Assembly: GCA_025267735.1 (NCBI GenBank)
Contig: CM046295.1
Span: 18,818,938 to 18,882,937, forward strand
Direction of reading: 5' to 3'
Length of the DNA: 64,000 bases
Source of the DNA: Mactra quadrangularis
Lineage: Eukaryota > Mollusca > Bivalvia > Venerida > Mactridae
Part shown: positions 6,385-61,390 of the stretch, piece after piece
Position numbering within the stretch: position 1 is the first letter of the stretch
How the letters are laid out: the number at the start of each line of letters is the position of its first letter
Notes under the pieces: model-generated
Database searches by the model: none
The model's input: the letters and a program-made list of their open reading frames with translations, nothing else
What the model was told of the DNA's origin: nothing
Program-made: the position numbers and the translations under genes

Positions 6385-8455
6385 TTGATCGACATTATTT
6401 GATCAGTTGATTAAATCTTCTATAATCATTTGGTCAGATAAGCGATCTACCATCAGTTGGCCAGTTAAGCATTAAATATTCAATTAGTCAGTAAATCGTT
6501 CTTTATTCATTTAGTCAGTTAAGCGTCACATATATTTTATTCGGCCGATAAAAAAAATTCTTTAAAGTTTTTTATAAATAATTTCATATCCATATTTTTA
6601 TTCTTTATTTCAATATACATTCATTTTTGTAACGAAAAGGAGAAGATTCCGAGCGTAGTTTTTCCAAAAATATCATTCGGTTCATTATTAGACATAACAT
6701 AATTTTAATATTACTTATAACGGATGATTTAGTTCTTTTAAAAAGTCGAGTGTTACGAGTTCTATTTCCATGCGGCATTAACTGGTACTCCGAACTGTCC
6801 CTAAAATAATACATTACTGTTTTTCCATTATAATCTTCCCATATTATATCTAAAAACATATTTTTGAAATTATTTGATTTACAATTCTTATTTTTAATCT
6901 TATAAAAATGCCTCTCAATTTTTTTCCCATCCTTTTAATATTCTTTCCGTCCATTGTGATGTCTATCAATCCATAAAATTACATAAAGCATTGGTCAGTA
7001 AATATTATATTCCTTTGGTCAGTAAAGCATTCTGTATTCATTTGGTCAGTTAAATATTATTTATTCATTTGATCAGTTAAGCCGTATACATGTAGATTCA
7101 TTTGGTCAGTTAAGCATTATATATTCATTTGGTCAGTTAAGCCTTATATATTTATTTGGACAGTTAAGCATCTAATTTATATTTGGTCAGTTAAGCCTTA
7201 TATATTCATTTGGTCAGTTAAGCCTTATATATTTATTTGGACAGTTAAGCATCTAATTTATATTTGGTCAGTTAAGCCTTATATATTCATTTGGTCAGTT
7301 AAGCCTTATATATTCATTTGGACAGTTAAGCATCTAATTTATATTTGGTCAGTAAGTCTTTTAGATTCATTTGGTCAGTTAAGCATCTAATTTTAATTTT
7401 GTCTGTTAAGCATTCTATATTCATTTGGTCAGTTAAATATTATATATTCATTTGGTCAGTTAAAGATTCTATATTTATTTGGTCAGTTAAGCATTCTTCA
7501 TGTACATTCATTTGGTCAGTTAAAGATTCTATATTCATTTGGTCAGTTAAGCATTCTATATTCATTTGGTCAGTTAAGCAATCTATATTCATTTGGTCAG
7601 TTAAGCATTCTATATTCATTCAGTTTTGCTTTCAATATGTTGGTAAGTTAAAAAAAATTAAGTTCATAATCAAACTTTTCTATATATGTTTTTTTTTCAA
7701 TTTGGTCAGTTATATTTTCATGGTATTATAACCACTCTATATTTAACTGGTCATTCAAGAATTGACATCCTAAAACGTTGACCAGTTGAACATTGAGTGT
7801 TTATTATTCCTTGCAATCATTGGTCAGTAATTTGTTCAATATTCTTTTCGTCAGTTAAGCGTTTTATAGTTATTTGGCCATTTAATTTGCAAAAAAAACA
7901 TCTTATTTTACCAATGACTAAATGGTCAGTAAAGCGTAAGACATAAGTTTGCTCATTTAACGCTTTTTATTAATATATAAACTCTCAATCATTTGGTCAG
8001 TAAAACAATTTTTTATTCATATTGGTCAGTTAAACATTTTACCATCATTTGGTCAGTTAAATATTCTGACATTTAAAGATAATATTTAAATCATTTTCTT
8101 CTGAAATAAATACCTCTTGTCTTTTTGTTAAATTCTCTGAAATTATTTATTTGAAAAATTATTCTTATTGTGAAATCATTAATATCGCTATCTTATCTTT
8201 CTATTTTTAATTAAGTATTTTTTTTAAATTATTTTTTTAAAACAAATTATTATCTTTATAATGACATTATTAAATTTGGTAGAAAAATATCACAACATCA
8301 ACATAAAAAAATAATCCAACAATATCAACAAAACACCTAAGCGATACAGTCATTTCAATCCCTTCTTTGTTTAACTGGTTAGTTAAGAACATAATTGCAC
8401 TGTATTTAACTCGTCAGTTAAGCACACTATATTTAACTCGTCAGTTAAGCGGTCA
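6385..8455. repeat. 27-bp minisatellite (TTTGGTCAGTTAAGC), unit 1
   Basis: The core at about 7010-7640 is roughly 23 monomers of a 27-base unit containing CATTTGGTCAGTTAAGC and an AT-rich spacer. On both sides, from 6385 and out to 8455, single decayed monomers recur at irregular spacing, so the whole segment looks like an old array with a recently homogenised core. Because 27 is a multiple of three, long open frames appear on both strands (for example 7345-7731). They are by-products of the repeat, not genes. Confidence 0.92.
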
Positions 8456-11571: not shown

Positions 11572-14500
11572 ATGGCTACATCAGGCAATCAACAGAAGAA
11601 TTCAAGTATAAAAGGATCAGACTTCGTGTATGATCTTGTGTGTAAACCTTGCCATCTTGATGATATAGCAAAACCTGCCTTTGGATATTGTACTGATTGC
11701 GATGAACACCTTTGTTCAATGTGCTATGTTAACCACAAGAAATTGAGACCAAGTAGACATCATAAACTATTGGATTCCAGTTCTATGCCTCAAACACAAA
11801 CACTTGATGACACAGACACAGCAGTATCTGATAGTCTTACTACACCGTGTGAGAAACATAGCCAGAAGTGCATTGAATATTACTGCAATGATCACAAGGT
11901 AACACTTTGCAGTGTTTGTGTTACTTTGAATCATACCAAGCCTTGTAAAGTTGATTATATCCCTGATATCTCCAAAACAGTCCTGAATAGCGATATCTTA
12001 CGAGAGATAATTGCTAGAGCACAGTCTATTGAGGTCAAGTGTGACACCGTGAAGAAAAGAACATCACAGGATACACAACAAACGATAGCTTCTTTAAAAA
12101 AATCACAGTCTGATTTGAAGAAATACAGAAATGACCTAAACAGGAAACTTGATAACCAGGAAATGGAAATTTCTAAGAAGATAACTGATTTGACGGAAGA
12201 AAATAACAACAAAGTAAAGACCACAGGAACAAAATGCGATGTTATGAAAGCGGATACTCAGCTGCAAAAGGATACACTGAATCAAATGAATAAATCCAAA
12301 CAGCCAAATCAACTATTTATAGAAATACAACAAACCAGAAAAATCCTAGATGAATATGAGGACAGTCTACAGTCTATTGAAAGCCAACATCACCTTGATG
12401 AGTATCAGTTTATACCAAATACAGCTATACTTGAAGCCAAAAACGTACTTGGGACGATATCATCACAGCAACAAGTGATGTCACCATCTACCCACTCCAA
12501 TATACCACCACAAAGACATCAGCGTATAGATATCAAACCGACATACAAGGATGAAATATTGGTGAAAACAAATGGAGACCAGAAAGAGTGTTGGATCACA
12601 GGTATACTGTATAGCGGGTATTATCTGCGGGGGTTTTATTTTGGCTTTATTGGCGGAAAATGAAAATGCGCCAAATATAAACACCGCGAATACAAACCTC
12701 CGCAGAATTAAGTCGCCGCCATATTGTTTACTAAGGGACATTACTGTTAATAAATTATGTATTCATTAAAATATATATGTATTAACTCCTTTAAAACAAT
12801 AATTATGTAGTGAATTAGGTGAGATTTATTATGTAAATGAACGAAAATACAGACAGACAACACAGTCATTCTAACAATTAGACGACAGGTTCCATCAAAA
12901 CTCGGTTACGAAACTCAACGACGCTGCCGCCATTTTGTTTAATTTATAAACCCGTACGCCGGTCATTTCCGAATCTTCATGATTTAAGCTCAAACACTTA
13001 TTTGATTGTCGTAAAAAACAAAGTCATCTTTAGTATCGCAATTAATTTAATTGCTTGCTATCAAACCGAAGACAAACTTCTCATCACCTAATTTAACAAC
13101 TTGAGTAAAAAGAGCGGAGTTTCTGTTTAAGTAGCTTATTATTAATTGATATTCAAAAGAAAACTATTGTCAAATTCATATGTAGATTGGAAATCTAACG
13201 TCACGTGACGACGCTTTATAATTAATTTTGTCTGTTTAAAGACTCCACTAGGTGGGTTGATTATACATTGTTTGTGACAAGCTGTTAATTTTAAAATATG
13301 TTGGACCTTGATCAATGAATTCAGGTAAATTGGCAATTTTTAAGGAGTGCGTGGCCGCAAACTTTAATACCAATATTTTTTTGACAAAGGCGTTATTCAC
13401 GACTATAAACAAACATGCGAAAAACATTTATGAACAAATAGTTATTATTATAAGACTCTCGCGAGATGGGCTTACTTATGCAATTTGTCGAACGATCAAT
13501 CAAATTTAGCAGCACCCAGTTAATATTTTTTAACAAAAACATACACATTTAATGGCGATTCTTATCACATGATTAAACTTGTTCCCGTCAAAACATCGTC
13601 GTAGAAATATATAATATGTTGTGTAAGCGTTGGTTTTTCACACATCCGCTTAGATTATGCAATTTTGGTGACAATTAATTCAAAAATTTGAAAAGTCGCG
13701 GTCGGTAGCGACTATGTACCTTTGACCATCTTTTACCGGGAGGTTTAAAATTGGCGCTCACAGTAATTTCCGCCAATATTTAGCATCGCCAATACAAAAC
13801 TCTCTTGTTTACGCGAAATTTTTGCCCCGCAGAAATAACCCGCTATACAGTAACTGAAATAGTACCAGATATTTTGGTATTAGCTGATTTTAACAACCAG
13901 TCAATCAAACTTGTTAATGTACAAAGTAAATCGGTTACGTCAACACTCAGACTAGAAACTGATCCCTGGGATATAACAACAGTATCTACAACAGAAGTTG
14001 CTGTCACCGTACCTGATGGAGAATATATACAGTTTGTTACAGTATCTAACATGCTGGAGAAATCTCGTAGGATAAATACCAATGGTAAATGTCGTGGTAT
14101 ATGTTATCATCAAGATAAACTTATTGTTACATACTGTTACTGTTACCCTGGTAAACTTGAAATACTTGATATGAAAGGTAAAGTGATCAAATCAATAACC
14201 AAAGATACAACAGGTAACAATATATTCTCTGACCCATACTATGTACAAGCTACCTACAAAAACATTTATATCTCTAATAATGGTAACAACAACATATTCA
14301 TGGTAGATTATAACGGTATTGTTATATCTAGATATGAAGTGAAGAATCCTTGTGGACTGGCTTTGTTACAGGATAGCAGTATTTTAATATGTTCCATGAT
14401 AGAAAATAAACTATATCAACTAACAGGAGATATAAAAAAGTGTACTGTTATGTTACAAGATGTAGAAAGTCCTCAAGCTATATGTGTAAATCATCAAAAT

Positions 14501-14575
14501 AGTAAAGTATATATTAGTAGGTTTACTGTAAGTGGCAGCAAGATAAGGAACAATATTCTTGTATGGAACATATAA
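11572..14575 (+). CDS. TRIM-like B-box/coiled-coil/NHL protein, copy 1 (split by a MITE)
   Basis: The first part (11572-12606) encodes B-box 1 (CxxC at residues 24/27, then Cys40, Cys43, Cys48, Cys51, His55), B-box 2 (Cys93, His96, Cys105, His108, Cys113, Cys116, His121, Cys125) and the coiled coil. The NHL-like propeller follows from 13851. Between them lies a 1244-bp transposon at 12607-13850 that brings a stop at 12661-12663. If transcribed, the insert could act as an intron: donor CAG|GTATAC after 12601, acceptor TATACAG at 13850 or the better GCCCCGCAG at 13832. Both joins keep the frame (584 or 590 aa). An upstream in-frame TTG at 11551 is not the start; the ATG follows the 3' splice site, as in the other copies. 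No RING is present. It is either a working two-exon gene or a pseudogene. Confidence 0.7.
12607..13850. mobile_element. Tc1/mariner-like MITE inserted in gene copy 1
   Basis: Terminal inverted repeats of 26 bases with three mismatches start CTGTATAGCGGGT, and the target dinucleotide TA is duplicated (12605-12606 and 13851-13852). The intact paralogues show the empty site GGTATAACTGAA. TA duplication points to the Tc1/mariner superfamily. No transposase is visible: the ORFs inside are under 90 codons and unrecognised, so it is non-autonomous. It sits at the boundary between linker and propeller and may behave as an intron. Confidence 0.88.
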
Positions 14576-23695: not shown

Positions 23696-25444
23696 ATGGC
23701 TACATCAGGCAATCAACAGAAGAATTCAAGTATAAAAGGATCAGACTTCGTGTATGATCTTGTGTGTAAACCTTGCCATCTTGATGATATAGCAAAACCT
23801 GCATTTGGATATTGTACTGATTGCGATGAACATCTTTGTTCCATGTGCTATGTTAACCACAAGAAATTGAGACCAAGTAGACATCATAAACTATTGGATT
23901 CCAGTTCTATGCCTCAAACACAAACACTTGATGACACAGACACAGCAGTATCTGATAGTCTTACTACACCGTGTGAGAAACATAGCCAGAAGTGCATTGA
24001 ATATTACTGCAATGATCACAAGGTGACACTTTGCAGCGTTTGTGTCACTTTGAATCATACCAAGCCTTGTAAAGTTGATTATATCCCTGATATCTCCAAA
24101 ACTGTCCTGAATAGCGATATCTTACGAGAGATAATTGCTAGAGCACGGTCCATTGAGGTCAAGTGTGACTCCATGAAGAAAAGAATATCACAGGATACAC
24201 AACAAACCATAGCTTCTTTAAAAAAATCACAGTCTGATTTGAAGAAATACAGAACTGACCTAAATAGGAAACTTGATAGCCAGGAAAAAGAAATAACCAA
24301 GAAGATTACTGATTTGACCGTAGAAAATAACAACAATGTTAAGACCACTGGAACAAAATGCGATGTTATGAAAACGGATACTCAGTTGCAAAAGGATACA
24401 CTGAATCAAATGAATAAATCCAAACAGCCAAATCAACTATTTATAGAAATACAACAAACCAGAAAAATCCTAGACGAATATGAGGACAGTCTACAATCTA
24501 TTGAAAGCCAACATCACCTTGATGAGTATCAGTTTATACCAAATACAGCTATACTTGAAGCCGAAAACGTACTTGGGACGATATCATTACAACAACAAGT
24601 GATGTTACCATCTACCCACTCCAATATACCACCCCAAAGACATCAGCGTACAAATATCCAACCAAGAAACAAGGATGAAATATTGGTGGAAACAAGTGGA
24701 GACCAGGAAGATTGCTGGATCACAGGTATAAATGAAATAGTACCTGATATTTTGGTATTAGCTGATTATAACAACAAGTCAATCAAACTTGTTAATGTAC
24801 AAAGTAAATCGGTTACATCAACACTCAGACTAGAACATAAACCCTGGGATATAACAACAATATCTACAACAGAAGTTGCTGTCACCCTACCTGCTGGACA
24901 ATATATACAGTTTGTTACAGTATCTAACAAGCTGGAGAAATCTCGTAAGATAAATACCAATGGTTACTGTCATGGTATATGTTATCATCAAGATAAACTA
25001 ATTGTTACATACTGTTTCCCTGGTAAACTTGAAATACTTGATATGAAAGGTAGAGTGATCAGATCAATAACCACAGATACAACAGGTAACAATATATTCT
25101 CTGAACCAATCTATGTACAAGCTACCAACAAGAACATTTATATCTCTGATAGAGATAACAACAACATATTAATGGTAGATTATAACGGTATTGTTATATC
25201 TAGATATGAAGTGAAGAATCCTTATGGACTGGCTGTGTTAAAGGATAGTAGTATTTTAATATGTTCCAGGAGTGAAAATAAACTATATCAACTAACGGTA
25301 GATATAAAGAAGTGTACTGTTATGTTACAAGATGTAGAATATCCTCTAGCTATATGTGTAAATCATCAAGATAGTAAAATGTATATTAGTAGGAATAGTG
25401 GTGACAGCAAGATAGCCAACAATATTCTTGTATGGAACATATAA
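23696..25444 (+). CDS. TRIM-like B-box/coiled-coil/NHL protein, copy 2 (intact)
   Basis: A 582-residue product from one exon; the ATG follows a TCTTTTCAG splice site by two bases. B-box 1 ligands are Cys24, Cys27, Cys40, Cys43, Cys48, Cys51, His55 and His63/64. B-box 2 ligands are Cys93, His96, Cys105, His108, Cys113, Cys116, His121 and Cys125. A coiled coil runs at about 140-275, a Gln/Pro-rich linker at 295-345 and a six-blade NHL-like propeller at 346-582, ending VLVWNI-like. There is no RING, so ligase activity is not expected without a partner. In TRIM2/3/71-type proteins the propeller binds RNA or protein and the coiled coil makes dimers; here the ligand is unknown. Residues 361, 381-382, 400-402, 424, 426, 441, 470-472, 485-487, 510, 525-526, 549-551 and 567-574 differ among copies. 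It is cytoplasmic by family; no signal peptide is seen. Confidence 0.93.
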   Translation: MATSGNQQKNSSIKGSDFVYDLVCKPCHLDDIAKPAFGYCTDCDEHLCSMCYVNHKKLRPSRHHKLLDSSSMPQTQTLDDTDTAVSDSLTTPCEKHSQKCIEYYCNDHKVTLCSVCVTLNHTKPCKVDYIPDISKTVLNSDILREIIARARSIEVKCDSMKKRISQDTQQTIASLKKSQSDLKKYRTDLNRKLDSQEKEITKKITDLTVENNNNVKTTGTKCDVMKTDTQLQKDTLNQMNKSKQPNQLFIEIQQTRKILDEYEDSLQSIESQHHLDEYQFIPNTAILEAENVLGTISLQQQVMLPSTHSNIPPQRHQRTNIQPRNKDEILVETSGDQEDCWITGINEIVPDILVLADYNNKSIKLVNVQSKSVTSTLRLEHKPWDITTISTTEVAVTLPAGQYIQFVTVSNKLEKSRKINTNGYCHGICYHQDKLIVTYCFPGKLEILDMKGRVIRSITTDTTGNNIFSEPIYVQATNKNIYISDRDNNNILMVDYNGIVISRYEVKNPYGLAVLKDSSILICSRSENKLYQLTVDIKKCTVMLQDVEYPLAICVNHQDSKMYISRNSGDSKIANNILVWNI

Positions 25445-25825
25445 ATATTCTCATCAATTCGTACTTTACATTACATATCATCAGTTTGACAACACCACTC
25501 TTGTATGGAATATTTGACTTTATATGTACATTGACATTAATTATGTTCAGACTTATCTTAACAGTTTTAATCAAAGTACTGAATGTACTCTAAAGTCAAG
25601 AGACAAAAATGTTGTAATTTTACCATCAATATATATTTGTTAGACGTACGTATCATAATAGGATGTTGAAGTTTTTTAGTATAGAACAAGGGCAAGTGTT
25701 TTTATGGAATATATGAATATACATGTATATTGACTTTAATTATGATAAAAACTTAGTACTTTTAAATCAAAGTACTGAACATACTGAAACGTCAATGAAC
25801 ATTATTGCTGACAAACAATGATATA
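25445..25825. other. 3' flank of copy 2
   Basis: No gene. Diverged re-copies of the coding-exon end (CTTGTATGGAATATTTGACT near 25500; TTTTTATGGAATATATGAAT near 25700) lead into the minisatellite. I see no AATAAA signal placed convincingly for polyadenylation. Confidence 0.5.
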
Positions 25826-26566
25826 TATTTGTGACATACAGTGCCATATATATTTGTGACATACAGTGCCATACATATGTGTGATATACAGTGCCAAATA
25901 TATTTGTGACATACAGTGCCATATACATTTGTAACATACAGTGCCATATACATTTGTGACATACAGTGTCATATATATATTTGTGACATACAGTGGCATA
26001 CAGTGCCATACATATTTGTGACGTACAGTGCCAAATATATTTGTGACATACAGTGCCATATACATTTGTGACATACAGTGCCATATATATTTGTGACATA
26101 TAGTGCCATATATATTTATGACATACAGTGCCATGTATATTTGTGACATATAGTGCCATATATATTTGTGACATACAGTGCCATATATATTTGTGACATA
26201 TAGTGCCATATATATTTGTGACATATAGTGTCATATATATATGTGACATACAGTGCCATATATATTTGTGACATACAGTGCCATATATATTTGTGACATA
26301 TAGTGTCATATATATTTGTGACATACAGTGCCATATATATTTGTGACATACAGTGCCATATATATATATTTGTGACATATAGTGCCATATATATTTGTGA
26401 CATACAGTGTCATATATATTTGTGACATACAGTGCCATATATATTTGTGACATACAGTGCCATATTTTTGTAACATACAGTGCCATATATATTTGTAACA
26501 TACAGTGCCATATATATTTGTAGCATACAGTGCCATATATATTTGTGACATATAGTGCCATCTGTA
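25826..26566. repeat. 25-bp minisatellite, about 30 monomers (unit 2)
   Basis: Monomer TGACATACAGTGCCATATAT plus ATTTG, 25 bases, with small changes (TATAGTGCC, TACAGTGTC). The unit has no stop on the minus strand in any phase, so all three minus frames stay open for long stretches with a 25-residue period. These ORFs (25767-26573 and its overlaps) are repeat by-products. Confidence 0.95.
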
Positions 26567-35073: not shown

Positions 35074-36825
35074 ATGGCTACATCAAGCAATCAACAGAAG
35101 AATTCAAGTATAAAAGGATCAGACTTCGTGTATGATCTTGTGTGTAAACCTTGCCATCTTGATGATATAGCAAAACCTGCATTTGGATATTGTAATGATT
35201 GCGATGAACATCTTTGTTCCATGTGCTATGTTAACCACAAGAAATTGAGACCAAGTAGACATCATAAACTATTGGATTCCAGTTCTATGCCTCAAACACA
35301 AACACTTGATGACACAGACACAGCAGCATCTGATAGTCTTACTACACCGTGTGTGAAACATAGCCAGAAGTGCATTGAATATTACTGCAATGATCACAAG
35401 GTGACACTTTGTAGCGTTTGTGTCACTTTGAATCATACCAAGCCTTGTAAAGTTGATTATATCCCTGATATCTCCAAAACTGTTCTGAATAGCGATATCT
35501 TACGAGAGATAATTGCTAGAGCACGGTCCATTGAGGTCGAGTGTGACTCCGTGAAGAATAGAATATCACAGGATACACAGCAAACGATAGCGTCTTTAAA
35601 AAAATCACAGTCTGATTTGAAGAAATACAGAAATGACCTAAACAGGAAACTTGATAGCCAGGAAAAAGAAATTACCAAGAAAATTACTGATTTGACGGTA
35701 GATAATTACAACAAAGTAAAGAGCACTGGAACAAAATGCGATGTTATGAAAGCGGATACTCAGCTGCAAAAGGATACACTGAATCAAATGAATAAATCCA
35801 AACAGCCAAATCAACTATTTATAGAAATACAACAAACCAGAAAAATCCTAGACGAATATGAGGACAGTCTACAATCTATTGAAAGCCAACATCACCTTGA
35901 TGAGTATCAGTTTATACCAAATACAGCTATACTTGAAGCCAAAAACGTACTTGGGACTATATCATCACAACAACAAGTCATGTCACCATCTACCCGCTCC
36001 AATATACCATCACAAAGACATCAGCGTATAGATATCAAACCGACATACAAGGATGAAATATTGGTGAAAACAAGTGGAGACCAGGATGAGTGTTTGATCA
36101 CAGGTATAACTGAAATAGTACCAGATATTTTGGTATTAGCTGATTATAACAACCAGTCAATCAAACTTGTTGATGTACAAAGTAAATCGGTTACATCAAC
36201 ACTCAGACTAGAATATCTACCCTGGGATATAACAACAATATCTACAACAGAAGTTGCTGTCACCGTACCTAATGGACCATATATACAGTTTATTACAGTA
36301 TCTAACAACATGAAGGAGTCTCGTAGGATAAATACCAATGGTAAATGTCATGGTATATGTTATCATCAAGATAAACTTATTGTTACATACTGTTTTCCAG
36401 GTAAACTTGAAATGCTTGATATGAAAGGTAAAGTGATAAAATCAATAACCACAGATACAACAGGTAAAGATATATTCTCTGATCCACACTATGTACAAGC
36501 TACCAACAAAAACATTGATATCGCTGATTATGGTAACAACAACATATTAATGGTAGATTATAACGGTATTGTTATATCTAGATGTGAAGTGAAGAATCCT
36601 CGTGGAATGGCTTTGTTAAAGGATAGCAGTATTTTAATATGTTCCAGTGGTGAATATAAACTATATCAACTAACGGGAGATATAAAGAAGTGTACCGTTA
36701 TGTTACAAGATGTAGAAAGTCTTCAAGCTATATGTGTAAATCATCAACATAGTAAAGTGTATATTAGTAGGAATAAGTATTATGACAGCAAGATAAACAA
36801 CAATGTTCTTGTATGGAACATATAA
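35074..36825 (+). CDS. TRIM-like B-box/coiled-coil/NHL protein, copy 3 (intact)
   Basis: A 583-residue product from one exon, with the same architecture as copy 2: two B-box-like modules with all zinc ligands kept (residues 24-64 and 93-125), coiled coil at about 140-275, linker, six-blade propeller from about 346. No RING. Against copy 2 I count by eye about 30 changed residues in the first 345 positions, about half of them in the linker, and about 45 in the last 237, which include one extra residue in blade 6 (RNKYYDSK-like). In the propeller the silent differences are only about 7-10. Many changed codons differ at two or three bases inside identical flanks. The ATG follows AG at 35070-35071 by two bases. 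It was probably made by unit duplication from the same ancestor as copy 2. Confidence 0.93.
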   Translation: MATSSNQQKNSSIKGSDFVYDLVCKPCHLDDIAKPAFGYCNDCDEHLCSMCYVNHKKLRPSRHHKLLDSSSMPQTQTLDDTDTAASDSLTTPCVKHSQKCIEYYCNDHKVTLCSVCVTLNHTKPCKVDYIPDISKTVLNSDILREIIARARSIEVECDSVKNRISQDTQQTIASLKKSQSDLKKYRNDLNRKLDSQEKEITKKITDLTVDNYNKVKSTGTKCDVMKADTQLQKDTLNQMNKSKQPNQLFIEIQQTRKILDEYEDSLQSIESQHHLDEYQFIPNTAILEAKNVLGTISSQQQVMSPSTRSNIPSQRHQRIDIKPTYKDEILVKTSGDQDECLITGITEIVPDILVLADYNNQSIKLVDVQSKSVTSTLRLEYLPWDITTISTTEVAVTVPNGPYIQFITVSNNMKESRRINTNGKCHGICYHQDKLIVTYCFPGKLEMLDMKGKVIKSITTDTTGKDIFSDPHYVQATNKNIDIADYGNNNILMVDYNGIVISRCEVKNPRGMALLKDSSILICSSGEYKLYQLTGDIKKCTVMLQDVESLQAICVNHQHSKVYISRNKYYDSKINNNVLVWNI

Positions 36826-44279: not shown

Positions 44280-45455
44280 CATTGGTCAGTAAATATTATA
44301 TTCCTTTGGTCAGTAAAGCATTCTATATTCATTTAGTCAGTTAAACATTATTTATTCATTTGGTCAGTTAAGCCTTATATATTCATTTGGTCAGTTAAAC
44401 CTTATATATTCATTTGGTCAGTTAAACCTTATATATTCATTTGGTCAGTTAAACCTTATATATTCATTTGGTCAGTTAAACCTTATTTATTCATTTGGTC
44501 AGTTAAACCTTATATATTCATTTGGTCAGTTAAACCTTATATATTTATTTGGTCAGTTAAACCTTATATATTTATTTGGTCAGTTAAACCTTATATATTT
44601 ATTTGGTCAGTTAAACCTTATATATTTATTTGGTCAGTTAAGCCTTATATATTCATTTGGTCAGTTAAACCTTATATATTCATTTGGTCAGTTAAACCTT
44701 ATATATTTATTTGGTCAGTTAAACCTTATATATTTATTTGGTCAGTTAAACCTTATATATTTATTTGGTCAGTTAAACCTTATATATTTATTTGGTCAGT
44801 TAAATCTTATATATTCATTTGGTCAGTTAAACCTTATATATTCATTTGGTCAGTTAAGCCTTATATATATATTTGGTCAGTTAAACCTTATATATTCATT
44901 TGGTCAGTTGAGCCTTATATATTTATTTGGTCAGTTAAAACTTATATATTTATTTGGTCAGTTAAGCCTTATATATTCATTTGGTCAGTTAAGCCTTATA
45001 TATTTATTTGGTCAGTTAAGCATCTAATTTATATTTGGTCAGTTAAACCTTATAGATTTATTTGGTCAGTTAACCATTCTATATTCATTTGGTCAGTTAA
45101 AGATCATATCATATATTCATTTGGTCAGTTAAAGATTCTATATTCATTTGGTCAGTTAAGCATTCTATATTCATTCGGTCAGTTAAGCATTCTTCATGTA
45201 CATTCATTTGGTCAGTTAAGCATTCTATATTCATTTGGTCAGTTATAGATCTTATATTCATTTGGTCAGTTAAACATTCTATATTCATTTGGTCAGTTAA
45301 GCATTCTATATTCATTTGGTCAGTTAAGCATTCTATATTCATTTGGTCAGTTAAAGATTCTATATTCATTTGGTCAGTTAAGCCTTCTATATTCATTTGG
45401 TCAGTTAAGCCATCTATATTCATTTGGTCAGTTAAGCATTCTATATTCATTCAGT
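44280..45455. repeat. 27-bp minisatellite, about 43 monomers (unit 4)
   Basis: Two monomer forms run in blocks: TTATATATT(C/T)ATTTGGTCAG with TTAAACC in the left two-thirds, and TTCTATATTCATTTGGTCAG with TTAAGCA in the right third. This is the longest of the three arrays. The minus-strand 113-codon frame at 45109-45450 is a by-product. Confidence 0.94.
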
Positions 45456-50964: not shown

Positions 50965-52712
50965 ATGGCTACATCAGGCAATCAACAGAAGAATTCAAGT
51001 ATAAAAGGATCAGACTTCGTGTATGATCTTGTGTGTAAACCTTGCCATCTTGATGATATAGCAAAACCTGCATTTGGATATTGTACTGATTGCGATGAAC
51101 ATCTTTGTTCCATGTGCTATGTTAACCACAAGAAATTGAGACCAAGTAGACATCATAAACTATTGGATTCCAATTCTATGCCTCAAACACAAACACTTGA
51201 TGACACAGACACAGCAGTATCTGATAGTCTTACTACACCGTGTGAGAAACATAGCCAGAAGTGCATTGAATATTACTGCAATGATCACAAGGTGACACTT
51301 TGCAGCGTTTGTGTTACTTTGAATCATACCAAGCATTGTAAAGTTGATTATATCCCTGATATCTCCAAAACTGTCCTGAATAGCGATATCTTACGAGAGA
51401 TAATTGCTAGAGCACAGTCTATTGAGGTCAAGTGTGACTCCGTGAAGAAAAGAACATCACAGGATACACAACAAACGATAGCGTCTTTAAAAAATCACAG
51501 TCTGATTTGAAGAAATACAGAAATGACCTAAACAGAAAACTTGATAACCAGGAAATGGAAATAACCAAGAAGATTACTGATTTGACCGTAGAAAATAACA
51601 ACAATGTAAAGACCACTGGAACAAAATGCGATGTTATGAAAACGGGTACTCAGCTGCAAAAGGATACATTGAATCAAATTAATAAATCAAAACAGCCGAA
51701 TCAACTATTTATAAAAATACAACAAACCAGAAAAATCCTAGACGAATATGAGGACAGTCTACAATCTATTGAAAGCCAACATCACCTTGATAAGTATCAG
51801 TTTATACCAAATACAGCTATACTTGAAGCAGAAAACATACTTGGGACGATATCATCACAGCAACAAGCCATGTCACCATCTACCCATTCCAATATACCAT
51901 CACAAAGACATCAGCGTATAGATATCAAACCGACATACAAGGATGAAATATTGGTGGAAACAAGTGGAGACCAGAGAGAGTGTTGGATCACAGGTATAAC
52001 TGAAATAGTTCCTGATAATTTGGTATTAGCTGATTGTAACAACCGGTCAATCAAACTTGTTGATGTACGAAGTAAATCGGTTACATCAACACTCGGACTA
52101 AAATATGAACCCTGGGATATAACAACAATATCTACAACAGAAGTTGCTGTGACCGTAACTGGTGGACAATATGTACAGTTTGTTGCAGTATCTAACAACC
52201 TGAAGAAGTCTCGTAGGATAAATACCAATGGTCAATGTCAAGGTATATGTTATCATCAAGATAAACTTATTGTTACATACTGTTGGCCTGGTAAACTTGA
52301 AATACTTGATATGAAAGGTACAGTGATCAAATCAATAACCAAAGATACAACAGGTAAATATATATTCTCTCTACCACACTATGTACAAGCTACCAACAAA
52401 AACATTTATATCTCTGATAGAGATAACAACAACATATTAATGGTAGATTATAACGGTATTGTTATATCTAGATGTGAAGTTAAGGATCCTCATGGACTGG
52501 TTTTGTTAAAGGATAGTAGTATTTTAATATGTTCCAGGGGTGAAAATAAACTATATCAACTAACGGTAGATATGAAGAAGTGTACTGTTATATCACAAGA
52601 TGTAGAAAGGCCTCGAGTTATATGTGTAAATCATCAAGATAGTAAAGTATATACTAGTAGGTTTAGTGGTGACAGCAAGACAGACAACAATGTTCTTGTA
52701 TGGAATATATAA
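50965..52712 (+). pseudogene. TRIM-like B-box/coiled-coil/NHL protein, copy 4 (frameshifted)
   Basis: The reading frame matches the other copies to residue 175, where a run of seven A in the paralogues is six A here (near 51488-51493). This shifts the frame and ends the product at 181 aa, with both B-boxes intact (all zinc ligands kept) but most of the coiled coil and the propeller lost. The rest stays open from about 51507 to 52712 with the usual propeller, so the total length is exactly one base short of a 582-aa gene. A single-base loss in a homopolymer may be a sequencing or assembly error. Propeller residues at the variable sites differ again (for example Trp at the position of Phe441, His at 510). 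If the frameshift is real the truncated form could act as a B-box-only fragment. Confidence 0.85.
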
Positions 52713-52965: not shown

Positions 52966-53899
52966 ACATACAGTGCCATATATATTTGTGACACACTGTG
53001 CCATATACATTTGTGACATACAGTGTCATTATATATTTGTGACATACAGTGTCATTATATATTTGTGACATACAGTGCCATATATATATATATATATTTG
53101 TGACATACATTGCCATATATATTTGTGACATACAGTGCTATATATATATATATTTGTGACATACAGTGCCATATATATATATATTTGTGACATACATTGC
53201 CATATACATTTGTGACATACAGTGTCATTATATATTTGTGACATACAGTGTCATTATATATTTGTGACATACAGTGCCATATATATATACATTTGTGACA
53301 TACAGTGCTATATATATTTGTGACATACAGTGCCATATATATTTGTGACATACAGTGCCATATATATTTGTGACATACAATGCTATATATATTTCTGACA
53401 TACAGTGCCATATATATTTGTGACATACAGTGCCATATATATTTGTGACATACAATGCTATATATATTTGTGACATACAGTGCCATATATATATATATTT
53501 GTGACATACAATGCTATATATATTTGTGACATACAGTGCCATATATATTTGTGACATACAATGCCATATAAATTTGTGACATACAGTGCCATATAAATTT
53601 GTGACATACAATGCTATATATATTTGTGACATACAGTGCCATATATATATATATATGTGACATACAATGATATATATATTTGTGACATACAGTGCCATAT
53701 ATATTTGTGACATACAATGCCATATATATTTGTGACATACAATGCCATATATATTTGTGACATATAGTGCCATATACATTTGTGACATACAATGCCATAT
53801 ATATTTGTGACACACAGTGCCATATACATTTGTGACATACAATGCCATATATATTTGTGACATACACTGCCATATATATTTGTGACATATAGTGCCATC
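52966..53899. repeat. 25-bp minisatellite, about 36 monomers (unit 4)
   Basis: Same monomer as at 25826-26566 with extra TA dinucleotides in several units (TATATATATATATATTTGTG), so the lengths vary. All minus-strand frames remain open over long stretches, producing overlapping ORFs of 71-211 codons that are not genes. Confidence 0.95.
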
Positions 53900-60469: not shown

Positions 60470-61390
60470 GGTCAGTAAATATTATATTCCTTTGGTCAGT
60501 TAAGCATTCTGTATTCATTTGGTCAGTTAAATATCATTTATTCATTTGATCAGTTAAGCCGTATACATGTATATTCATTTGGTCAGTTATGCATTCTATA
60601 TTCATTTGGTCAGTTAAACATTATTTATTCATTTGGTCAGTTAAGCCTTATAAATTCATTTGGTCAGTTAAGCCTTATATATTTATTTGGTCAGTTAAGC
60701 CTTATATATTTATTTGGTCAGTTAAGCCTTACATATTTATTTGGTCAGTTAAGCCTTATATATTTATTTGGTCAGTTAAGCCTTATAGATTCATTTGGTC
60801 AGTTAAGCATCTAATTTAATTTCGTCTGTTAAGCATTCTATATTCATTTGGTCAGTTAAAGATTCTATATTCATTTGGTCAGTTAAGCATTCTATATTCA
60901 TTTGGTCAGTTAAGCATTCAATATTCATTTGGTCAGTTAAGCATTCTATATTCATTTGGTAAGTTAAGCATTCTATATTCATTTGGTCAGTTAAACATTC
61001 TATATTCATTTGGTCAGTTAAGCATTCTATATACATTTGGTCTGTTAAGCCTTATATATTTATTTGGTCAGTTAAAGATTCTATATTCATTTGGTCAGTT
61101 AAGCATTCTATATTCATTTGGTCAGTTAAGCAATCAATATTCATTTGGTCAGTTAAGCATTCTATATTCATTTGGTCAGTTAAAGATTCTATATTCATTT
61201 GGTCAGTTAAAGATTCTATATTCATTTGGTCAGTTAAGCATTCTATATTCATTTGGCCAGTTAAGCAAGCTATATTCATTTGGTCAGTTAAGCATTCTAT
61301 ATTCATTTAGTCAGTTAAGCATTCTATATTCATTTGGTCAGTTAAGCATTCTATATTCATTTGGTCAGTTAAGCATTCTATATTCATTCA
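60470..61390. repeat. 27-bp minisatellite, about 34 monomers (unit 5)
   Basis: Core array of CATTTGGTCAGTTAAGC monomers, with TTATATATTTATTTGG forms on the left and TTCTATATTCATTTGG forms on the right. Decayed monomers extend on both sides, as in units 1 and 4. Confidence 0.94.

Follow-up and report, generated by a model that had tools for sequence, protein, structure and literature searches.

The subject of this analysis is a gene in a stretch of DNA from the clam Mactra quadrangularis (the window, i.e. all 64,000 nucleotides analysed; C3:18818938-18882937 of a 979-Mb genome). The window contains four tandem copies of the gene; the second of them, termed c02, consists of a single open reading frame (ORF) of 582 codons at 23696-25444 on the + strand, to which all residue numbers refer. 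ORF, Pfam and AlphaFold2 together give the order B-box 1, B-box 2, long helix and NHL-type propeller, with the RING absent from the ORF. The gene belongs to a large, mostly clustered family in which residues on one face of the predicted propeller are positively selected, at matching places on every blade. This variable face is probably the surface with which the proteins bind ligands, as members of a recognition repertoire. At each blade junction, roughly two positions evolve faster than synonymous sites, and this applies to two clusters of the c02 family as well as to a second propeller family in the same genome. The family is thus multicopy, with a conserved N-terminal part and a diversifying surface on one domain, as is general for hypervariable recognition repertoires.

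The N-terminal part of c02 contains a B-box-1-like zinc fold (residues 23-65; 23762-23890, +), assigned by PF22586 and conserved Cys/His residues, and a B-box 2 (residues 92-125; 23969-24070, +), assigned by PF00643. In an alignment of 62 sequences, C24, C27, C40, C43, C48, C51, H55 and H64 of the first box, which we take to be zinc ligands from the B-box pattern, are at least 90% conserved, and C93, H96, C105, H108, C113, C116, H121 and C125 of the second box are invariant, so that all 16 Cys/His positions expected of the B-boxes of a TRIM-NHL protein are retained. The profile matches of c02 itself lie below the curated cut-offs (E 0.003 for PF22586; 19.4 bits for PF00643, with a cut-off of 24.1), and 53 and 61 of the 62 sequences, respectively, match at E<=0.01. 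In the full-length AlphaFold2 model, a long helix (residues 141-241) and a second helix (245-272; together 24116-24511, +) are coiled-coil-like, as would be expected of a TRIM-NHL protein, and a predicted flexible linker (residues 300-318; 24593-24649, +) with a predicted local distance difference test score (pLDDT) < 50 follows. The C-terminal domain (residues 324-581; 24665-25438, +) is modelled with a pLDDT of 93.8 as the six-bladed NHL-type propeller typical of TRIM-NHL proteins, in agreement with its fold matches, and blade 6 is closed by the N-terminal strand 324-330. The RING of TRIM-NHL proteins was found in the 582-amino-acid ORF neither by Pfam at E<=10 nor by the C3HC4 pattern. Neither NACHT nor WD40 repeats are in the Pfam list of c02, and weak WD40-type matches occur in only a few of the 62 homologues. 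The blades of c02 are on average 17% and at most 29% identical to each other, and the sixfold register described below therefore does not result from recent copying of one blade.

In antiparallel four-stranded blades, the D-A and B-C loops share one face and the A-B and C-D loops the opposite one, and Paoletti et al. put the D-A and B-C loops on the top, which serves as interaction platform (PMC1805685). The fold of the clam propellers, and hence the assignment of faces, is predicted. In ten genes of the tandem array that includes c02 (residues 322-582), 28 sites are selected at a posterior > 0.95, 24 of them on the top face, and a selected site is present at 12 of 12 top-face junctions, with three of the sites (424, 441, 551) located at adjoining strand ends and not in the loop. 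The sister cluster, a separate clade at 22.2-22.9 Mb of the same contig C3 (11-12 genes), has 22 of 25 sites on top, at 11 of 12 junctions; with three divergent members included (15 genes, one run), the count is again 22 of 25. Fifteen sites are common to array and sister cluster, compared with 2.3 expected. As the earlier note on this DNA had supposed from four copies, the selected sites, by model strand order, thus cluster on one face and are not scattered over both.

The positively selected positions, all on the + strand, can be followed around the propeller. Between blades, they are found in the D6-A1 loop (sites 338, 339, 341; 24707-24718), the D1-A2 loop (381, 382, and 384 in the sister cluster; 24836-24847), the D2-A3 junction (424 and 426 around Cys425; 24965-24973), the D3-A4 loop (470 and 472 around Pro471; 25103-25111), the D4-A5 loop (508 and 510 around Pro509; 25217-25225) and the D5-A6 loop (551, and 549 in the sister cluster, around Pro550; 25340-25348). 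Within blades, they occupy the B1-C1 turn (358, 361; 24767-24778), the B2-C2 turn (398, 400, 402; 24887-24901), the B3-C3 junction (441; 25016-25018), the B4-C4 turn (486, and 487 in the sister cluster; 25151-25156), the B5-C5 turn (525, 526; 25268-25273) and the B6-C6 turn, which is variable in length (567-569 and 574; 25394-25417). A Pro or Cys is conserved at every D-A junction (340, 383, 425, 471, 509, 550). In the array, the positions directly before and after it (-1 and +1) vary in all blades, and the Pro/Cys itself varies only in blade 6. Expressed as the nonsynonymous rate (dN) over the propeller-wide synonymous rate (dS), positions -1, 0 and +1 reach 8.5, 0.38 and 5.5 in the array and 5.5, 0.12 and 2.0 in the sister cluster.

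Variable residues at two equivalent places in nearly every blade had been named by the earlier note from the four window copies, and the 25 sites concerned hold in nine copies outside the window. There, the proportion of nonsynonymous differences (pN) is 0.371 at these sites versus 0.058 at the other 211 propeller codons, and dN/dS is 4.17 versus 0.78. When the site set was shifted circularly, all 235 positions stayed below the observed pN of 0.371 (maximum 0.195). Codon 510 is indeed Cys, Tyr, Arg and His in copies 1-4. Ten of the 11 motif patterns are found at the given residues of the ORF; the exception is SRxxxSK, which does not match as written because that turn varies in length (SRNSGDSK in c02). 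Selected sites that had been missed are residue 508, those of the B1-C1 turn (358, 361) and those of the D-A loop not included in the earlier list, the sixth, which with residues 338-341 (window 24707-24718) lies just outside the region then considered. Sites with dN > dS, proposed as a check, were found in every enlarged propeller alignment that was run. The earlier interpretation as a diversifying binding face of recognition proteins is thus supported; ligand binding by the top face, a variety of ligands and a role in immunity are what we infer from it.

Selection was assessed with home-written site models (GY-type codon model; M1a/M2a, M7/M8 and M8a/M8). For the array propeller, twice the log-likelihood difference (2dlnL) between M8a and M8 is 194-203, with 17-18% of the codons at an omega of 6-8. 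Copy c12, whose propeller is like that of c07, was left out of the array tests except for an early domain table, and c00, c01 and c04 were left out wherever the whole propeller or the N-terminus was needed, which resulted in the ten array genes. For the sister cluster, 12 closely related genes that form one clade within the 22-Mb cluster were used, without the near-identical L023, L029, L031, L032 and L050 and without divergent members; face mapping in addition left out L048, giving 11 genes. As the copies exchange segments, each third was refitted on its own tree and the null was simulated. The array thirds on their own trees give 2dlnL of 55, 94 and 42, and the null simulations reach at most 9.6 without recombination (40 data sets, 7 > 2.71) and at most 20.5 with shuffled 20-codon blocks (40 recombining data sets, 17 > 2.71).

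Could inter-copy exchange, a mutational hot spot or the site models themselves have produced the signal as an artefact? The copies have in fact exchanged segments, as incompatibilities are clustered in the full-length array alignment (matched by 0 of 1000 permutations) and in the N-terminal one (1 of 1000), and the code is anti-conservative under recombination. Within the propeller alone, the permutation test for exchange is not significant (111 of 1000 as low for the array, 655 of 1000 for the sister cluster), and a shuffling of blades is therefore not claimed. An artefact is rejected as contradicted by the pairwise counts, which use no tree and thus make the selection result independent of the models. 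Moreover, segment trees keep the signal and simulated recombination does not come close to ~200, and a hot spot disagrees with the fact that at the sites named earlier pN rises more than sixfold and the proportion of synonymous differences (pS) less than twofold. We therefore regard an artefact as highly improbable.

The same holds for relaxed constraint, i.e. for the idea that loops of redundant copies drift freely. Loops are generally variable and some copies are broken, which would fit such a drift, yet dN/dS is about 4 at the sites and thus above the neutral value of 1, which led us to reject this explanation. In the array, dN/dS is 1.6 in the D-A and 2.4 in the B-C loops, compared with 0.27 in the A-B and 0.73 in the C-D loops of the bottom face, the residue between the variable pair is unchanged in five of six blades in array or sister cluster, and the N-terminal part of the same copies, with the B-boxes and the predicted coiled coil, is conserved at 0.27-0.38 (0.27 for residues 1-321 of the ten array genes). 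All these differences speak against a free drift of loops, for which there is hardly any probability left.

A propeller-only search revealed a second group, whose members are single open frames that lie mostly on C5 and C13 and have 27-31% identity in the propeller (C5 0.28-1.19 Mb, 7.79-9.87 Mb and others; C13 33.83-34.05 Mb; C3 1.04 Mb). At least 30 copies of this C5 family were fetched (L069-L098), with frames of 363-407 amino acids in 26 of 30, and Pfam found no B-box in the four of the 30 that were scanned. The set analysed comprises 25 of the 30 copies, the near-identical L072 and L086 and the divergent L095-L097 being dropped. Its 2dlnL is 301, the thirds on their own trees give 54, 105 and 78, each far above the simulated null, and of 23 selected sites, 22 could be mapped, 21 of them to the top face. 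The 24-site core list used below was compiled after the results for array and sister cluster had been seen, and therefore only Mactra, Ruditapes and the C5 family test it out of sample; the anchors of the register were likewise set post hoc and have their out-of-sample test in the C5 family. In this family, the core sites of the first family stand at 2.4 versus 0.42, and the register reads 3.5 (-1), 0.03 (0) and 2.6 (+1). At the protein level, core sites differ at 0.72 versus 0.18 for the rest among three Mactra paralogues, and at 0.77 versus 0.31 among 16 Ruditapes paralogues (54 of 120 pairs, with a propeller identity of at least 0.45).

How could these proteins function? In the predicted topology, the chain would enter and exit the propeller on the bottom face, so that the variable top would be free and point away from the coiled coil. 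The coiled coil would dimerise and the B-boxes may assemble the dimers, as in TRIM proteins. Assembly of the protein and onward signalling would fall to this conserved B-box/coiled-coil part, and each copy would bind a different protein, peptide or glycan via its top face. As the RING is absent from the ORF, the output would be a blocking by assembly or the recruitment of a partner ligase. New specificities would be supplied by tandem duplication, inter-copy exchange and selection.

The kind of ligand deserves attention, as the propellers could in principle also be RNA readers like Brat, Mei-P26 and LIN41, with a top face that follows changing viral or transposon RNAs. RNA-binding NHL domains account for many of the propeller's best fold matches, and two papers describe RNA binding by a basic patch that is likewise on the top or upper surface of the NHL domain (PMC9070667; PMC5908797). 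The core sites of the sister cluster are also somewhat basic on average (-1 to +5). On the other hand, the net charge of the top face takes both signs among copies, from -3 to +5 in ten array copies and from -2 to +6 in 11 sister copies, which argues against an RNA patch of the Brat/LIN41 type. Tyr, Phe, His and Gln are abundant at the core sites, and so is Arg (K+R 15%, D+E 10%); 30% of the residues there are aromatic or His, compared with 7.5% elsewhere. Because of these aromatic and His-rich sites and the two-signed charge, protein, peptide or glycan ligands fit better, and RNA reading appears unlikely.

If the top face is a recognition surface for such ligands, the driver of its diversification would most likely be conflict with pathogens or parasites inside cells. 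The main alternative is that the repertoire, similar to fungal HET-D/E, is not directed at pathogens but distinguishes self from non-self among conspecifics, in gamete or cell fusion or against transmissible cells. B-box proteins are normally intracellular and there are many loci in one genome, both of which count against this alternative; the closest precedent for the pattern is nevertheless an allorecognition family (PMC1805685). We consider self/non-self recognition rather improbable.

Several points weigh against a variable recognition surface. Faces were assigned from the strand order of the model, i.e. from secondary structure and not from coordinates, with strands split at the middle, and the full-length AlphaFold2 model has a predicted template-modelling score (pTM) of only 0.49. 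Four of the 28 array sites (369, 412, 514, 562) are off the top face, and the top enrichment in the array thirds alone (p 0.054, 0.010 and 0.23) is significant only in the middle third; in the sister cluster, it is significant in all three thirds. Position +1 in blade 6 of the sister cluster is invariant. The dN/dS of the whole array propeller is 1.25 with a codon bootstrap of 0.87-1.78, which includes 1, and in the C5 family, whole D-A loops have a dN/dS of 0.66 and C-D loops of 1.19 on few synonymous changes, which means that the signal there is in single positions only. The home-written models are anti-conservative, so that low 2dlnL values, among them those of the array N-terminus (5.6) and of the N-terminal part of the C5 family (11.1), carry little weight. 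The usual ligase output of TRIM proteins is missing in an ORF without RING, and an immune function would be argued by analogy.

We lean, if only slightly, towards the wider proposal that heterodont bivalves independently evolved a germline recognition repertoire on six-bladed NHL propellers. It would comprise at least two large families in one genome, use the same sixfold "x-[Pro/Cys]-x" platform in both with at least 20 variable residues on one face, and bind changing intracellular targets.

As to the genes themselves, the array comprises at least 14 tandem copies at C3 18.81-19.01 Mb, 11 of which have one full-length open frame. Further copies of the family lie elsewhere on C3 and also on C8, C13 and C16. 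At least 58 loci with at least 50% identity were fetched, and as two genes are represented twice, these correspond to about 56, and in 38 of them a single open frame spans the whole protein; the copy numbers are lower bounds, because 75 of 2081 candidate matches were scored. The closest named relatives are hypothetical proteins of Mactra antiquata (best 58-59% protein identity), followed by proteins of Ruditapes and Mercenaria (best 36-38%).

The other window copies, all on the + strand, are c01 (11572-14575), c03 (35074-36825), with an intact ORF of 583 amino acids, and c04 (50965-52712). The frame of c01 is interrupted in the linker by a 1.24-kb insertion at window 12607-13850, which has terminal inverted repeats with the ends CTGTATAGCGGG and CCCGCTATACAG and TA on both flanks and resembles a non-autonomous DNA transposon that duplicated a TA target. 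The frame of c04 is broken once ahead of the propeller, at a short A run (window 51440-51560), and c00 (L067, outside the window) also shifts frame at the linker; either change may be real or an assembly error. Two minisatellites with 27-bp and 25-bp units recur at several places within the array (window 7006-7620, 44297-45451 and 60483-61388; 25821-26561 and 53090-53898), the one with 25-bp units directly 3' of c02 and c04. The Rfam scan of the window gave no match at gathering score. Copies c07 (C3:18912174-18913922) and c12 (C3:18997168-18998916), 85 kb apart, have an identical propeller protein in the alignment, which points to a segmental duplication or conversion within the array in the recent past. 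L029, L031, L032 and L033 (C3 22.63-22.82 Mb) have nearly identical propellers that differ at the B3-C3 junction 440-443 (YCPPS, YGWPS, YGCPR) and few other places, which suggests that change in hypervariable turns starts soon after duplication.

Among known systems, the architecture is that of TRIM-NHL proteins (class VII TRIM; TRIM2, TRIM3, TRIM71/LIN41, Brat, Mei-P26, Thin), which share the B-box, the long helix and the six-bladed NHL domain and provide the best fold matches of the propeller. The clam family differs in that the RING is absent from the ORF, in its dozens of copies, and in a hypervariable top face that lacks any consistently basic patch. TRIM5alpha-like restriction factors (RING, B-box and coiled coil followed by PRY-SPRY) would be alike, if our interpretation is right, in having a conserved, assembling N-terminus and a C-terminal recognition domain with a few variable loops; they differ in the fold of the latter and in being encoded at few or single loci and not in a large array. 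Invertebrates lack antibodies, and to our knowledge the origin of their specific recognition is an old open question. A surface that is defined residue by residue and kept changing by selection across dozens of copies makes this question testable.

In bivalves, Regan et al. (2021) reported a B-box zinc-finger orthogroup, OG708, with many more copies than in the comparison group (PMC8382680). The comparison with OG708, as far as its accessible text allows, is one of domain and copy number alone; the main text has no match for "NHL", and in the accessible part of a paper on immune expansions in oyster (PMC4346834), TRIM appears only as trimAl. Searches of an open-access library, which lacks most subscription papers, gave no description of a diversifying NHL face. 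Podospora provides the known case of a positively selected propeller top face in a recognition family; the same searches gave no B-box/NHL version from an animal, and what is likely a bivalve recognition repertoire can be called undescribed as far as that library goes.

The closest precedent is the NACHT-WD40 proteins HET-D, HET-E and HNWD of Podospora anserina, which likewise form a gene family with exchange among members and have pairs of selected residues in the same two loops of each blade (PMC1805685). In HET-E, these are residues 7 and 9 in the d-a loop and 25 and 27 in the b-c turn, each pair two apart and on the top face (PMC1805685). The fungal systems, as described there, have NACHT domains and seven to eight highly similar WD40 blades that are exchanged and vary in number, whereas the clam proteins have six diverged NHL-type blades behind B-boxes and a coiled coil, and whole genes are tandemly duplicated. 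Selection at the d-a and b-c positions of the top face is therefore common to both, NACHT, WD40 and near-identical, homogenised blades are not, and the clam family would work like the HET-D/E type without being a member of it. If the wider proposal is true, the repertoire would be an animal counterpart of HET-D/E, with a propeller doing the job that is elsewhere done by leucine-rich-repeat or immunoglobulin repertoires. As the same design arose in fungal non-self recognition, the propeller top would be a recognition platform that evolved convergently and can be reused. Its sixfold symmetry, in which a conserved Pro/Cys separates two variable positions, may also yield a design rule for engineered binders.
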